Of a stretch of DNA of 23,118 nucleotides, positions 5,785 through 21,778 are shown in pieces. A model generated the notes under the pieces. The model saw only the letters and a program-made list of their open reading frames with translations, had not been told where the DNA came from and searched no databases. The DNA is from a virus. Where the stretch lies: positions 1-23,118 of the IMG/VR virus record IMGVR_UViG_3300031774_000163; one strand, 5' to 3'. A program made the position numbers and the translations under genes. The stretch's first letter is position 1. Each line of letters begins with the position of its first letter.

Positions 5785-5846
5785 AAAAAGGTAGTGAGAG
5801 AACTAGGCGAAAAAGGTAGCGAAAACCTAACCCCCTCACACCTTTT
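5785..5846 (-). terminator. Intrinsic terminator or attenuator hairpin inside late operon
   Basis: AAAAGGT (5786-5792), bulged A5793 and GTGAG (5794-5798) pair with CTCAC (5835-5839) and ACCTTTT (5840-5846): 12 bp with one bulge. Read on the minus strand the 3' arm ends in TTTTT. It overlaps the stop codon of the collagen-like gene. A perfect TAnnTTTG box is not found between it and the next gene, so it likely acts as a partial terminator or mRNA-stabilising hairpin. Confidence 0.6.
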
Positions 5847-6297
5847 AGTTTACTTTTACTATACCTCTATCGTTCCAAAGGTCGCCTCGATTTAGACCTC
5901 TGTTAGACGTTGGTAACGTGCTTCCACTTAAAGTGTCCATAGTAGGAGTATCGCCTTTATCTCCTTTCTTCCCATTTGCACCTGTATTACCTGTATCTCC
6001 CTTATCGCCTTTATCACCTTGTGGTCCTTGTGGTCCTTGTGGTCCTTGTGGTCCTTGTGACCCACCTCCACCTGTAAAATCCTCAGTTAAATGTCGTCTA
6101 AGCTCGTCTAACTCTTCCGATACGTTTTGTAACTGAAGATATACTATACCTAACTGAGCAAACGAACCTGAGTCTTGTATATGCTCTGCGTTTTCAAACT
6201 TAGTTTCTAATTCAGTTATCTTAGCAGGCTCAACCTTATCGTTACCATCACCTGTCTTAGTGAATATAGTCTTATTTTTTTTGTCTTGTAGTGCCAT
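5845..6297 (-). CDS. Collagen-like phage tail protein
   Basis: A 150-aa protein with three parts: a charged, likely trimeric coiled coil (about 24-72, with [16 protein letters not shown]), a glycine run GGGGS, and a collagen-like Gly-X-Y stretch (82-118, GPQ repeats then [10 protein letters not shown]), followed by a short C-terminal cap ([19 protein letters not shown]). Such proteins form trimeric fibres or linkers at tail tips. It lies between the tail-tip gene (3-nt gap) and the spike-base-like gene. The length of the GPQ run is encoded by a 9-bp tandem repeat and may vary. Confidence 0.85.
6017..6061 (+). repeat. 9-bp tandem repeat encoding Gly-Pro-Gln
   Basis: Four exact copies of CCTTGTGGT plus a fifth that diverges at its last two bases (CCTTGTGAC) lie within the collagen-like gene. 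On the coding strand each unit gives one Gly-X-Y triplet (GPQ). Identical codons make it prone to slippage and copy-number change. Confidence 0.9.
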
Positions 6298-16910: not shown

Positions 16911-17858
16911 TTAAAGTTTGCTTTTGAGTTTTAACTCATTAGTTAATAAATTAATATTCGAAAGGTCTATAACCTCTTCCTCTTTAACCTCTTCGGTTTC
17001 GTTGTTAAACTCTTCCAAAGAACGTAAAGCTACATCAGTATTGGAGTAAGCCCCAACACCAACAATCGAAACATCAAACAACCTTCCGATCTTATTGATA
17101 TTTCTCTTTGCTACATCACCATCTTTACTCCACTCATCTTCTTCAACCGTAAAGGCAAACGAAGATTCATAAAGTAAACCTCTACGCATTAGTTCAGCGA
17201 CATCTCGCCCAACCGATGTGTTAGGTAACGTACCATCGTATCTTAAACCTAAATCATCTACAGACAATTTAAGCGTACCACCGTGATTTCTATCTAAGAT
17301 AGCGTTCATATCGTGGTTAAATGTTAAAATTACATTGTCATCTAATCGACCATCAAACGCACCTCTTGAGATAACTTCTCTGAAGCCTAAATCTCTGCTT
17401 TCGTGGTCGAACAAAGAAGCGTAACCTGTCACTTTGATTTCGTCAGAATCTTCTTCCATACGAACTTCAAGTGGCTTAGAATACACTCTGATTTCTTTAT
17501 TATCTTTCATATCTAAACTATTTTTTTCTTCGTTACGTTTAATCTCTTTTACCTTTTTCCTAGACCAACTAAATCCTGCATCACCGCCCCATAAAGCCCA
17601 AGCTATTCTACCTGCACTTGGATAGCCCTTCTCTCCTGGACTAAAACCTTCAGCTTTCTTATCAACTTCGTGTCGGCTAAAGAAACTAAACATTCTTTTA
17701 ATTGTAGATATAGATAAATTTCCGTTTATTATATCTCTTGCTCTTGATACTCCTACCTCAGTACCACCTCTTCCGTGTTCCTTTCTCCAATCTAGCCCTT
17801 TACGAGCTTCGGACTTCATTCCGCTTGTAGGAGTTGTATTTATATCTTTTAAAGCCAT
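16911..17858 (-). CDS. Prohead protease with N-terminal accessory domain
   Basis: The C-terminal part (about 122-285) is an HK97-type (U35/S78) prohead protease: VTGYASLFDHESRDLGFREVISRGAF, LTFNHDMNAILDRN with likely catalytic H182, and LLYESSFAF with likely S232 or S233. It matures the capsid. The first about 100 residues are a separate domain (ARKGLDWRKEHGRGGTEVGV, FSRHEVDKKAEGFSPGEKGY, AGRIAWALWGGDAGFSW) seen joined to various phage structural proteins. M117 (17510-17508) follows an A-rich stretch and could start a protease-only 199-aa form. The start overlaps the portal stop as TAATG. Confidence 0.92.
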   Translation of the reverse strand: MALKDINTTPTSGMKSEARKGLDWRKEHGRGGTEVGVSRARDIINGNLSISTIKRMFSFFSRHEVDKKAEGFSPGEKGYPSAGRIAWALWGGDAGFSWSRKKVKEIKRNEEKNSLDMKDNKEIRVYSKPLEVRMEEDSDEIKVTGYASLFDHESRDLGFREVISRGAFDGRLDDNVILTFNHDMNAILDRNHGGTLKLSVDDLGLRYDGTLPNTSVGRDVAELMRRGLLYESSFAFTVEEDEWSKDGDVAKRNINKIGRLFDVSIVGVGAYSNTDVALRSLEEFNNETEEVKEEEVIDLSNINLLTNELKLKSKL

Positions 17859-19111
17859 TATTCGCTTTCTACTTCTCGTTTAGTGTCCTCTCCTAGTTTA
17901 TCTAAAGGCATCATATTCGATTGCATATAGACTTTCTCGCTTTCTCCACCCATCGGGTTCATATCCTCAAACGAACGTACCTCATCAGGCGATAATACAC
18001 CGATGTTTACTAATGTTCTATAGTAGTCAGCTCGTGACTTAGAATCACCTCTTAACAAAGCGTTAAGATTAAACTTAAAGTATTGTGTGCCTTGCTTTTT
18101 AAACGGAATTAGTTTAGAGTTCAACTCAGTTTCAATTCGCTTAACATAAGGCGTAATAGTGTGAACCACAAAGTCTATTTGCTGTGCTTCTATGTTGTTG
18201 TAGCTAGCAGCAGATAAATCATTTATAAGGTGGTTCGGTACTCTAAAAATACGAGCTATTTCACTTATAGAGAATTGTCTTGATTCTAAGAATTGTGCTT
18301 GATTGTTCGGTAACATCTTAGGCATAAAGTCCATACCTTCTTCAAGTATAGCTGTCTTACCTGTGTTAGCCGATCCACCGTAGTTGTTAGACCAAGATTC
18401 TCTAAGACGTTTAGCTGTTTCGGGCTTGAGAGTCCCAGGGTGTTTAAGAATACCTCCCACAGACGCACCGTTCTTAAAGAATGAACCTGCGTGGTGGTTT
18501 AAGGCTAAAGATATTCCTAAAGTATTTGCTTGTGATTCAATAGGCGATTGTCCCTCGATACCATCAAGAGAAATACCTTTACAATGAATCATATCGATTG
18601 CGTTTACTCTGCCTGTGTATGGGTAAACGAAATTAGTATTGTTTTGATTTATTTCGTAATATACACTTTTACCATCAGGTGACATATAAATATCTACGTC
18701 AACGCATTGGATAGGGTGCAATCCAATAGGTAAACCTGCTCCGTTTCTTTCGATGTAAGCGTAGAAGTTTCCATCTAAGCTCAAGTCAACTAGCATACGC
18801 TCGAAGAACATAAAAGAATTAAATAAAGGAGAAGGTTGTTTACCTACTAAATCAGTTAGGGGGGAGTTTAATTTTTTCTTTTTGCCAGTTTCAAGGTCAA
18901 CCTCGTGTTCCGATATTGGAAGCGAAGCGATTGTTTCTGACAAGACTCTTACGCAAGACCAAACCGCTGCTATTCGCATTGCTTGCTCTTTAGATACGTT
19001 TTCGCCTGATTGTGAACCGAAAGTTGGTCCTAGTATAGTCTGTCCGTAAAGACCTCTTTCCTCTTGTTTAAGAGGTTGTTTTCTTTGTGTAAAAAAGTCA
19101 AATATTCCCAA
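17858..19111 (-). CDS. Portal protein (HK97 family)
   Basis: A 417-aa HK97-family portal: MGIFDFFTQRK start, AMRIAAVWSCVRVLSETIASLP, FMFFERMLVDLSLDGNFYAYIERNG, HPIQCVDVDI, MIHCKGISLDGIEGQSPI, and SISEIARIFRVPNHLINDLS. It forms the dodecameric vertex ring for DNA entry and exit. The start codon is TTG (19111-19109): no in-frame ATG lies upstream before a TAA, and the next Met is within the conserved core. In the 61-nt gap before it, ACACCTA occurs twice (19138-19144, 19157-19163). Confidence 0.95.
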   Translation of the reverse strand: MGIFDFFTQRKQPLKQEERGLYGQTILGPTFGSQSGENVSKEQAMRIAAVWSCVRVLSETIASLPISEHEVDLETGKKKKLNSPLTDLVGKQPSPLFNSFMFFERMLVDLSLDGNFYAYIERNGAGLPIGLHPIQCVDVDIYMSPDGKSVYYEINQNNTNFVYPYTGRVNAIDMIHCKGISLDGIEGQSPIESQANTLGISLALNHHAGSFFKNGASVGGILKHPGTLKPETAKRLRESWSNNYGGSANTGKTAILEEGMDFMPKMLPNNQAQFLESRQFSISEIARIFRVPNHLINDLSAASYNNIEAQQIDFVVHTITPYVKRIETELNSKLIPFKKQGTQYFKFNLNALLRGDSKSRADYYRTLVNIGVLSPDEVRSFEDMNPMGGESEKVYMQSNMMPLDKLGEDTKREVESE

Positions 19112-19172
19112 ATTGTCTTGATTTTATGAAAAACTATACACCTATAAATAGTAAAAACACCTAAAATGTGAA

Positions 19173-19688
19173 CTAATTTTTCGAATTATTTTTGATTTTT
19201 TTTAAAGAACGTGCTAAAACCTTATGTATATAGCGGATACTACACCCTTTAATTTTAGCTATTTCTTGTATTTTTAGCCCATATTCGAACCTTAAATACA
19301 CAATATCTTTTGCTTTTTGGCTTTCTAACTTAAACACTTCTTCCCAAAGTCGGTCAGGAAGTGAATCGTAATCATCGCTTTTAAGGGGTGTTTTAGGCTG
19401 TTTAAGACGATAAGTCGTGTGAAAGGGGCTAGAGGTAGACAAGACTTGATTAACGACCACACGAGCCACAAAATACTCTAATTGATTTGTTTCGTGTAAA
19501 GACTCGATAGTTTCACTCATCTGTGAAAGCAAAATAACGTTGATGTCCTGGACTAAGTCGTCTAAGAGGTGATAGTCTTGGTTGTTAGACAAGACACTAG
19601 AGCAAATAGCTCTAACACTACTTTGGTGTAGTGTAATTATCTCGCCTTTAGATAAAGAAAATTTCCTTGTCGTCATAACCTGTTCCAC
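19173..19688 (-). CDS. Sigma-70/ECF-like RNA polymerase sigma factor
   Basis: The 171-aa protein has a region 2-like part (about 25-85: AICSSVLSNN, LLDDLVQDINVILLSQM, EYFVARVVVNQVL) and a region 4-like helix-turn-helix (about 117-168: VFKLESQKAKDIVYLRFEYGLKIQEIAKIKGCSIRYIHKVLARSLKKIK). Length and layout match ECF-type sigma factors. It likely redirects host RNA polymerase to phage promoters. It overlaps the terL end by 41 nt and precedes portal. M5 is an alternative start. The linker between the two regions (about 86-116) is short and basic/proline-rich. It could instead act only as a DNA-binding regulator. Confidence 0.8.
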   Translation of the reverse strand: MEQVMTTRKFSLSKGEIITLHQSSVRAICSSVLSNNQDYHLLDDLVQDINVILLSQMSETIESLHETNQLEYFVARVVVNQVLSTSSPFHTTYRLKQPKTPLKSDDYDSLPDRLWEEVFKLESQKAKDIVYLRFEYGLKIQEIAKIKGCSIRYIHKVLARSLKKIKNNSKN

Positions 19689-21228
19689 TATTTTTGTTTT
19701 TCATTGCCTCACTCAAAGCCATTAGACACGAAACGATACCATCAATCTTGTCGTTAGATTTCGCTTTGTTCGGCTTTACGTTACCTGCGGGGTCTTGGGT
19801 AAGCACGATGTTAGACATCATCCACCTAAGCACAGGATTTCCTGCGTGACGAATGTTTCCTCCAAGCACTAAAGTTTCGAACTCTTTTGTTGCAGGCGAC
19901 ATAGTCCGATAACCTTGACCTACAGGTATCATCGGACAACCCTCTTCTGTAAGGTCGATTACGATTTGTGAAGCGTTCCATCTATCATAAGCTATCATTT
20001 GAATATCGTATATCTCGCTCAAGTCACGTATCTTTTGCTTGATGTAGTTGTAATCGCAAACGTCACCAGGAGTAAAGATTACGTGTCCTTCTCTGTGCCA
20101 CTTCAGGTAGTCTACTTTATCTCGTTCTGATCGTTTGTAAGCGTTCTCTTCGGGAATAAAGAAAAACGGAATAATATCGTACCCATCGTTGTTGTCAGGG
20201 AACATAAGTGATAGACAAGTAATGTCACGAGTCGAGGCTAAATCGAGTCCTGCATAACAAGGCTTGCCCTCTAATCGCCTTGCATCTACAGGAACAGCTC
20301 CTTCCATCCACTTGTCGTCACTTATAAATCTAGTTTCGTTTGCAACCCATTGGTTTAGGTGAAGCCTACGGAACGTATTTTCGTAAGAAGGCTCGTTTTT
20401 TGCCTTTACCGATTGCTGTTGCATATACTCTTCGGTGATAATCGTACCGAAGCCTGGGTTGGCTTTCTTTTGCACCTCAATGTCGTATATGTCATCGTCT
20501 TTATCTGCTTCGTAAACAACGCCTAAGAACGAGTCGTCTTGGATAGAACCTTGGATAAGTTTCTTAGAATAGTCGTAAAGCTCTTTACAAATGTGGTCCT
20601 TTTGATGACCTGCTCCAGCTGTCGTGATACCTAGTAAAAGCGGCTCTTTCCTTGCTCCCATAGAAGTAAGTAAAACATCATATAAATCTCTGTTTTTGTG
20701 AGAGTGTATCTCATCAAGTAAGCAACAAGATAAGTTCAGTCCGTGCTTAGTATCTGCGTCTGCTGAGATTACTTTGTAGTACGATCCAACCTTATCGTAA
20801 GTGATTGAATCTCTGTAAGTACCTGCTCGCTTTGATAGTTCAGGATTTTGCAAAACCATTTGCTTTGCGATAGAGAAAGATAACCTAGCTTGTTCTTTAT
20901 CAGCAGCAGCCGATACAATCTCCGCACCCTTCTCTCCATCAGAAAAAAGCATATAGAGTGCGATACCTACCATTAGGTTTGTCTTTCCGTTTTTACGAGG
21001 GATAAACACAAAGCATTGGCGAAACTTTCTAAGGTTAGTTTTCTTAGACTTCCAACCGAATAAAGGGCGAATAATATCTTCTTTTTGCCACTCTTCCAGA
21101 ATAAACTTTTGTCCTGCTAACTCTCCTTTTACGTGCTGACAAAACATTTCGATAAAGTCCACAGCTCTCTTGGCACTCTTCTCATCGAAGTACCACTTGG
21201 ACTCATCTATGTTTTGTAGGTTATTCAT
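19648..21228 (-). CDS. terL: Terminase large subunit
   Basis: The 526-aa protein has the packaging ATPase at the N-terminus (Walker A-like IPRKNGKTN at 76-84; Walker B CCLLDEIHSH with D172-E173; coupling motif LGITTAG about 199-205) and an RNase H-like nuclease at the C-terminus with acidic residues D329 (YAGLDLASTRD), D415 (IAYDRW) and D496 (NDKIDG). It belongs to the HK97/phage terminase 1 type, full length. It overlaps terS by 8 nt and the sigma-like gene by 41 nt. Confidence 0.97.
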   Translation of the reverse strand: MNNLQNIDESKWYFDEKSAKRAVDFIEMFCQHVKGELAGQKFILEEWQKEDIIRPLFGWKSKKTNLRKFRQCFVFIPRKNGKTNLMVGIALYMLFSDGEKGAEIVSAAADKEQARLSFSIAKQMVLQNPELSKRAGTYRDSITYDKVGSYYKVISADADTKHGLNLSCCLLDEIHSHKNRDLYDVLLTSMGARKEPLLLGITTAGAGHQKDHICKELYDYSKKLIQGSIQDDSFLGVVYEADKDDDIYDIEVQKKANPGFGTIITEEYMQQQSVKAKNEPSYENTFRRLHLNQWVANETRFISDDKWMEGAVPVDARRLEGKPCYAGLDLASTRDITCLSLMFPDNNDGYDIIPFFFIPEENAYKRSERDKVDYLKWHREGHVIFTPGDVCDYNYIKQKIRDLSEIYDIQMIAYDRWNASQIVIDLTEEGCPMIPVGQGYRTMSPATKEFETLVLGGNIRHAGNPVLRWMMSNIVLTQDPAGNVKPNKAKSNDKIDGIVSCLMALSEAMKNKNSGTGYDDKEIFFI

Positions 21229-21697
21229 CGTTGTTAAAGAAGTTCTCTATCTTGATGTCAGGTGTATTTGCTTGTTTTTCGATTGAGTTTACCTTTGCTC
21301 TACTCGAAGGCGTAAGACCAAATTCTTTTAGTAGTTGAAAGATTCTTACGAAAGATTGGTTAGCTATTTGTACTTCAGGTCGAATAACTGTCTTAGCGTT
21401 ACCTTCCCTAGAAATCTGTACATCGGTTACACCTAACTCGTTTACGACTTGCTTAGCTGCCTTATATTCGCTGTAAGCGTCACAAAGTAATTCTAAGGCT
21501 AGTGCATCAGCGTTTGTCAGAACAGACATATCGTGAAGTAACTCGCCTAACTCGAGAAAAGTCTTTTGTCCATCTTCGCTTAACCAGGTTGGTACAGCAG
21601 GGATAACTGAAGGCAATACAGGCTCGTTAGGGTTAGCTCTATCTTTTCTTAGAGTCCCTCTTTGCTTTTTTATTTCTGTGGGTAATCTACTTGGCAT
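21221..21697 (-). CDS. terS: Terminase small subunit (P27 family)
   Basis: The 158-aa protein starts MPSRLPTEIKKQRGTLRKDRANPNEPVLP, the typical P27 family beginning, then PTWLSEDGQKTFLELGELL, ALALELLCDAYSEYKAA and a C-terminal helix ending FGLTPSSRAKV. It recognises the phage DNA and recruits TerL. It opens the late operon. The perfect -7 box TATCTTTG ends 6 nt before the ATG, leaving almost no leader. Confidence 0.93.
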   Translation of the reverse strand: MPSRLPTEIKKQRGTLRKDRANPNEPVLPSVIPAVPTWLSEDGQKTFLELGELLHDMSVLTNADALALELLCDAYSEYKAAKQVVNELGVTDVQISREGNAKTVIRPEVQIANQSFVRIFQLLKEFGLTPSSRAKVNSIEKQANTPDIKIENFFNNDE

Positions 21698-21702
21698 AAT
21701 GT

Positions 21703-21710
21703 CAAAGATA
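21703..21710 (-). promoter_or_regulatory. Probable late promoter -7 box before terS
   Basis: The complement reads TATCTTTG, an exact Bacteroidetes TAnnTTTG element. It is followed by ACATT and then the terS ATG. No TTG is found 19-21 bp upstream, so a -33 contact is missing or replaced, perhaps by a phage sigma factor or activator. Transcription from it would start at or next to the start codon. Confidence 0.5.
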
Positions 21711-21760
21711 GTAATTATTTTCTAAGAAAGAAAAAAGTAACACAAAAAAGAAAGAACTAT

Positions 21761-21778
21761 TATCCTTATCCTTATCCT
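21761..21778 (+). repeat. (TATCCT)3 tandem repeat
   Basis: Three exact 6-bp units lie between the terS promoter and the operator-like repeats. They may be a protein-binding array or a simple slippage product. Confidence 0.85.

Follow-up and report, generated by a model that had tools for sequence, protein, structure and literature searches.

An ECF-type sigma factor gene between terL and portal, and a candidate late promoter beside it, in a family of IMG/VR phages

The window analyzed here is the whole of a 23,118-nucleotide stretch of viral DNA, positions 1 to 23,118 of IMG/VR record IMGVR_UViG_3300031774_000163. Between the genes for the large terminase (terL) and the portal protein, it contains an open frame at 19173-19688 (minus strand) that encodes 171 amino acids from a GTG start. 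Here, we describe the sigma factor gene in this frame, the conserved element that separates it from the portal gene, and the control of late genes that the two may provide. The features concerned are as follows.

19173..19676, minus strand: ECF (extracytoplasmic function)-type sigma factor gene, 167 amino acids from a conserved ATG (Pfam region 4, TIGR02937, AlphaFold/Foldseek/VIA, and synteny in ~75 loci)
19145..19173, minus strand: predicted phage-sigma promoter, with GTTCAC at 19173-19168, a 17-nt spacer, and TATTTA at 19150-19145; ~33 nt 5' of the portal start
19135..19140, minus strand: further conserved block TGTATA, seen as a conserved TgTA in the sequence logo, 3' of the predicted -10

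An ECF-type sigma factor gene in the packaging module

The gene encodes a sigma-70/ECF-type protein with a sigma2 plus sigma4 build. The NCBIfam profile sigma70-ECF (TIGR02937) matched residues 12 to 163 of the 167-residue window protein (E value of 1.7e-10; 40.8 bits, just below the curated cutoff of 42.9) and matched all 40 family members tested (best E value, 1e-13). With Pfam, the window protein scored above the cutoff for Sigma70_r4 (25.8 versus 24.1 bits) and under the cutoff of 24 for region 2 (16.5 bits); region 2 was detected in 30 of 40 family members at an E value of ≤0.1 (best, 1.4e-4). Residues 37 to 168 also matched PHROG 1740 (sigma factor; 1.7e-9), and the best family match in a PDB sequence search was only region 4 of SigF (E value of 0.018). 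The sigma2-like domain corresponds to residues 10 to 90 and the sigma4 domain to residues 106 to 165, with a linker of ~15 residues. A core-binding-type motif, DLVQ(D/E), lies in region 2 and is among the best-conserved parts of the family. An earlier note, made from the sequence alone, had proposed a sigma-like gene with region 2 and region 4 parts within the packaging module, and the region 4 score, the long TIGR02937 match, and the synteny described below bear this out.

Structure prediction gave a similar picture. The AlphaFold model, computed from a 40-row family alignment, was all-helical, with two domains and ten helices (predicted local distance difference test score [pLDDT], 83.8; predicted template modeling score [pTM], 0.51); the low pTM is expected because the two domains are joined by a free linker. 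Neither a sigma1.1 nor a sigma3 domain was present in the 167 residues of the model, in which only a short linker separates helices 84-90 and 106-114. The top PDB matches of the full-length model in Foldseek were ECF sigma factors (best E value, 2.4e-3, with a probability of 1.00; none was below 0.001). VIA gave a Z score of 9.7 to region 4 of Escherichia coli sigma-E on DNA (2h27; 65 residues at 2.0 Å) and 9.6 to the whole of sigma-E over 147 residues, where the large root mean square deviation reflects domain placement. These full-length comparisons and the TIGR02937 and PHROG matches answer favorably the profile and structure search that the earlier note had suggested. Modeled alone, the N-terminal domain reached a pLDDT of 90.5 and a pTM of 0.81, and the top 11 VIA rows for the sigma2 domain were all ECF sigma2 domains (Z scores of 5.6 to 7.9 over 70 to 86 residues). 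Z scores of this size are intermediate for a helical domain, and we weighed them jointly with the profile match.

Relatives were collected as 80 IMG/VR loci from a TerL search. The sigma gene was found between terL and portal in every uncut locus with a TerL identity of at least ~76% (~75 loci), with sigma protein identity descending to 38% while TerL remained >75% identical. The gap to the portal gene was 53 to 74 nt in all, and the overlap with terL ranged from 26 to 77 nt, varying with the start chosen. An ATG at codon 5 of the open frame (19676), or one codon off, is conserved family-wide, whereas the GTG and ATG starts upstream of it vary. The true start is therefore probably ATG 19676 and not GTG 19688, and the 41-nt overlap with terL given in the earlier note, which is correct for the GTG, would shrink to 29 nt. 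Outside the terL overlap, and where synonymous change was unsaturated, the ratio of nonsynonymous to synonymous substitution rates (dN/dS) of the gene was 0.09 to 0.35; by this measure, the gene is under purifying selection. A chance open reading frame (ORF) was rejected on the basis of these ratios and of conservation in the same place across loci.

No close relative was found among 50,697 annotated phage records, in which the sole match covered 41 residues of region 4 in a Leptospira phage (E value of 0.9); a distal family member used as the query likewise found no relative among annotated phages. There was no match in 72,556 plasmids and no relative, by either the sigma or the TerL profile, in 84,980 bacterial genomes with their prophages. 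Bacterial ECF sigma factors (TIGR02937; sigma-E, SigH, AlgU, and SigW) share the sigma2-linker-sigma4 build and match over the full length in both profile and fold. The window gene differs from them in that no anti-sigma neighbor was seen, in its position within a phage packaging module, and in a predicted -35 of GTTCA(C/G).

The conserved element in the sigma-portal gap

The sigma stop codon ends on the first base of GTTCAC. We aligned the sigma-portal gap in 25 loci and then listed it in 79. The element has the form GTTCA(C/G)-N16-CTATTTA, and GTTCA and CTATTT were invariant, 17 nt apart, in 18 nonredundant main-clade loci. Nearby fourfold sites, taken as a neutral yardstick, were close to saturation: identity to the window at terL fourfold sites was 0.36 to 0.63, and none of 32 fourfold columns was invariant in the portal gene across 17 loci. 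In the window, the full pattern was matched exactly once (19145-19173, minus strand). A matrix for which near copies had been excluded from training ranked the element first in 9 of 9 main-clade contigs, which may be incomplete, with 21 to 30 bits versus 8 to 12.5 bits for the runner-up.

The linkage of the element to the sigma gene was exclusive. An extended pattern had 53 exact matches in viral_contigs (2.9 million contigs), and the sigma gene lay directly upstream of 52 of them. The remaining match starts 42 nt from a contig end, and what remains of the contig there belongs to the 3' end of the sigma gene. The matching loci share descent, and the count of 53 thus measures linkage and uniqueness rather than 53 independent events. 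A distal clade retains GTTCAC (GTACAC in L070 and L071), followed by a second part of the form TATATAT-N-TATATGGATAA, and the main-clade matrix misses this form (G006, G007, and G013).

Folding of the gap as RNA revealed no common strong structure, and Rfam and tRNA scans were empty. An exact TAnnTTTG, the host-type box discussed below, occurred in the gap in 8 of 66 loci, at differing offsets where inspected, versus a background of 3.8%; we did not treat it as conserved. From its position, the TGTATA block may lie near the expected transcription start or may be an alternative -10. Main-clade loci with GTTCAG (L046, L029, L051, and others) mostly have a recognition helix with E or D (SERY/SDRY), not STRY or SIRY. 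The covariation between the sixth base of the -35 (C/G) and the recognition helix (S-T/I-R versus S-E/D-R) ran largely in parallel, with L045 and L048 as exceptions, and may reflect only two or three events; it was not used as evidence.

Candidate control of the late genes

The flanking genes, which include an HK97-type capsid and an S78 protease according to Pfam, and the box upstream of the small terminase gene (terS) are as follows.

21703..21710, minus strand: TATCTTTG, a -7 box of the host type, 5' of terS; presumably the promoter for terS-terL-sigma
21221..21697, minus strand: terS, small terminase (Terminase_4, Pfam); first gene of the transcript presumed to include the sigma gene
19648..21228, minus strand: terL, large terminase (TerL_nuclease and TerL_ATPase, Pfam); overlapping the sigma gene at its 3' end
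17858..19111, minus strand, TTG start: portal gene (Phage_portal, Pfam); first gene 3' of the predicted phage promoter
15667..17858, minus strand: prohead protease and major capsid genes (Peptidase_S78 and Phage_capsid, Pfam); next in the presumed late transcript

TAnnTTTG is the -7 box of the flavobacterial sigma-A (PMC9723704). Counting redundant loci, 53 of 57 had a copy with zero or one mismatch no more than 50 nt from terS. The hosts are probably of the Bacteroidota type, as suggested by this promoter type. The box lies only 5 nt 5' of the terS ATG (21695-21697); at the usual start distance, the terS mRNA would be leaderless or nearly so, or the real terS start would be further in. Also just 5' of terS are head-to-tail GGATAA repeats (21758-21778), with GGGGTCAA repeats nearby. 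Both recur in many related contigs and may belong to the 3' end of a gene or to a packaging or replication site.

A natural comparison is provided by six sister phages (L083 and L086-L090; TerL ~50% identical), which have the same order of terS, terL, portal, and protease as the window and in which checks including tblastn found no sigma gene. In 6 of 6 of these loci, which are interrelated, the 110 nt before portal contain, in this order, a terminator-like hairpin, T's, and a TATCTTTG or TATATTTG box; the background for such a box was 6.8% in random stretches. On the sequence evidence, portal is preceded by a host-type signal in the sister phages that lack the sigma gene and by a phage-type element where the gene is present. 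Between terL and portal, the sister phages also carry a group of small ORFs of unknown function.

We consider it likely that a late phage sigma factor, made from a host-type terS-terL-sigma transcript, turns on a single adjacent promoter for the genes from portal through tail. Host polymerase with its primary sigma factor would start at the TAnnTTTG-type promoter 5' of terS and produce the terS-terL-sigma transcript. The new sigma factor would then recruit host core polymerase to GTTCA(C/G)-N16-CTATTTA, and this predicted promoter would drive portal, protease, capsid, and the collinear tail genes. Because the sigma gene lies upstream of the promoter, it is outside the transcript that it would start, and the circuit would be a feed-forward relay rather than self-activation. 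Such a one-step relay would divide the packaging and structural region into two parts, with the packaging enzymes made at a low dose and the structural proteins at a high dose. No terminator was seen in the 60-nt sigma-portal gap, and read-through from terS into portal is therefore likely; the relay would boost the dose of the structural genes and delay their peak without acting as an absolute switch. With somewhat less assurance, we also regard it as probable that these proteins are late sigma factors forming a phage family of their own, each genome having one adjacent dedicated promoter, with terS-terL under the host sigma factor and portal onward on the phage sigma factor, and that sigma gene and promoter make up a cassette located where the sister phages have a terminator and a host promoter. 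The late regulatory role suggested in the earlier note probably stands.

The other part of that suggestion, a positive loop in which a true sigma factor acts on the promoter of its own operon upstream of terS, fared differently. The sigma gene does lie in a transcript starting at terS, and the -33 region there is not recognizable, in agreement with the degenerate -33 element that the earlier note had described. However, that region belongs to a promoter whose conserved box is host-type, and scans of the window and of 11 other contigs with the sigma gene showed no GTTCA element 5' of terS; the element is found only 3' of the sigma gene. We therefore regard such a loop as very unlikely. Somewhat less improbable, but still unlikely, is a sigma-like activator or operator-binding protein that aids the host holoenzyme at the gap element, in the manner of Ltr/RinA, without replacing the host sigma factor. 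Region 4 is the stronger match in the window protein, which favors such a role, but region 2 with its DLVQ(D/E) motif is among the most conserved parts, the ECF profile spans the full length, and the gap contains neither a position-conserved TAnnTTTG nor direct repeats of the kind described for Ltr. The gap element could also be a packaging (pac/cos) site or a translation or RNA element, bound by the sigma-like protein as a packaging accessory, given that terS and terL adjoin and that helix-turn-helix proteins occur in packaging. A small terminase is already encoded, though, two invariant blocks at a fixed spacing suit a promoter, the gap folds into no common strong structure, and a host-type promoter box occupies that position in the sister group; we give this explanation the least weight of all.

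Several observations weigh against the sigma-promoter relay that we favor. The sigma2 fold, which the earlier note had singled out for checking, agrees with the VIA rows described above, but a Foldseek search with the sigma2 domain alone returned no significant match (best sigma E value, 3.5). In the distal clade, the second block of the element differs (TATATAT...ATGGATAA) and its spacing is not clear-cut. Conservation in the main clade runs past the -10 block, and part of the element may serve another role. On the sister side, L202 and L203 have neither the sigma gene nor an exact TAnnTTTG before portal. Finally, there is one candidate promoter per genome, upstream of portal only, whereas phiEco32 and phage 7-11 have six and eight, respectively.

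Comparison with known phage regulators

Phage ECF-like late sigma factors are already known, and the arrangement described here is a variant. phiEco32 gp36 and phage 7-11 gp47 are likewise small, ECF-like phage sigma factors (middle/late) with phage-specific promoters before late genes. The late promoters of the 7-11 sigma factor are proven and bipartite, and their layout, GTAAtg-(16)-aCTA, is close to GTTCA(C/G)-N15-aCTATTTA here (PMC8948821). The similarity between the window protein and 7-11 gp47 was weak in profile comparison, although full-length and colinear (15% identity; hhalign E value of 0.0084 and probability of 5%). In phage 7-11, the sigma gene is near exonuclease and ligase genes and far from the terminase, and it serves eight promoters; the window phage has one adjacent candidate promoter and a TAnnTTTG-type host promoter. 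In staphylococcal phages, the gene for the regulator Ltr lies directly before the late promoter that it controls (PMC13123087). Ltr and RinA of Gram-positive phages are activators that are encoded before terS and work with host sigma-A, whereas the window encodes an ECF-type sigma factor after terL. With this position, only portal onward would be controlled.

Little is known about how late genes are timed in phages of Bacteroidota-type hosts, and a cognate promoter has been predicted for few phage sigma factors. In the present case, the gene, the predicted promoter, and a natural comparison group without both are defined, and a single protein and a single 60-bp fragment would suffice to test the circuit. 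If confirmed, the pair would be an orthogonal sigma factor and promoter for hosts with expression signals unlike those of E. coli. Elsewhere in the window, an ORF at 5845-6297 (minus strand) encodes a collagen-like GPQGPQG repeat, and the sole near match of the window among records of known phages falls in the DNA of this ORF (40 nt, Lactobacillus phage EV3).
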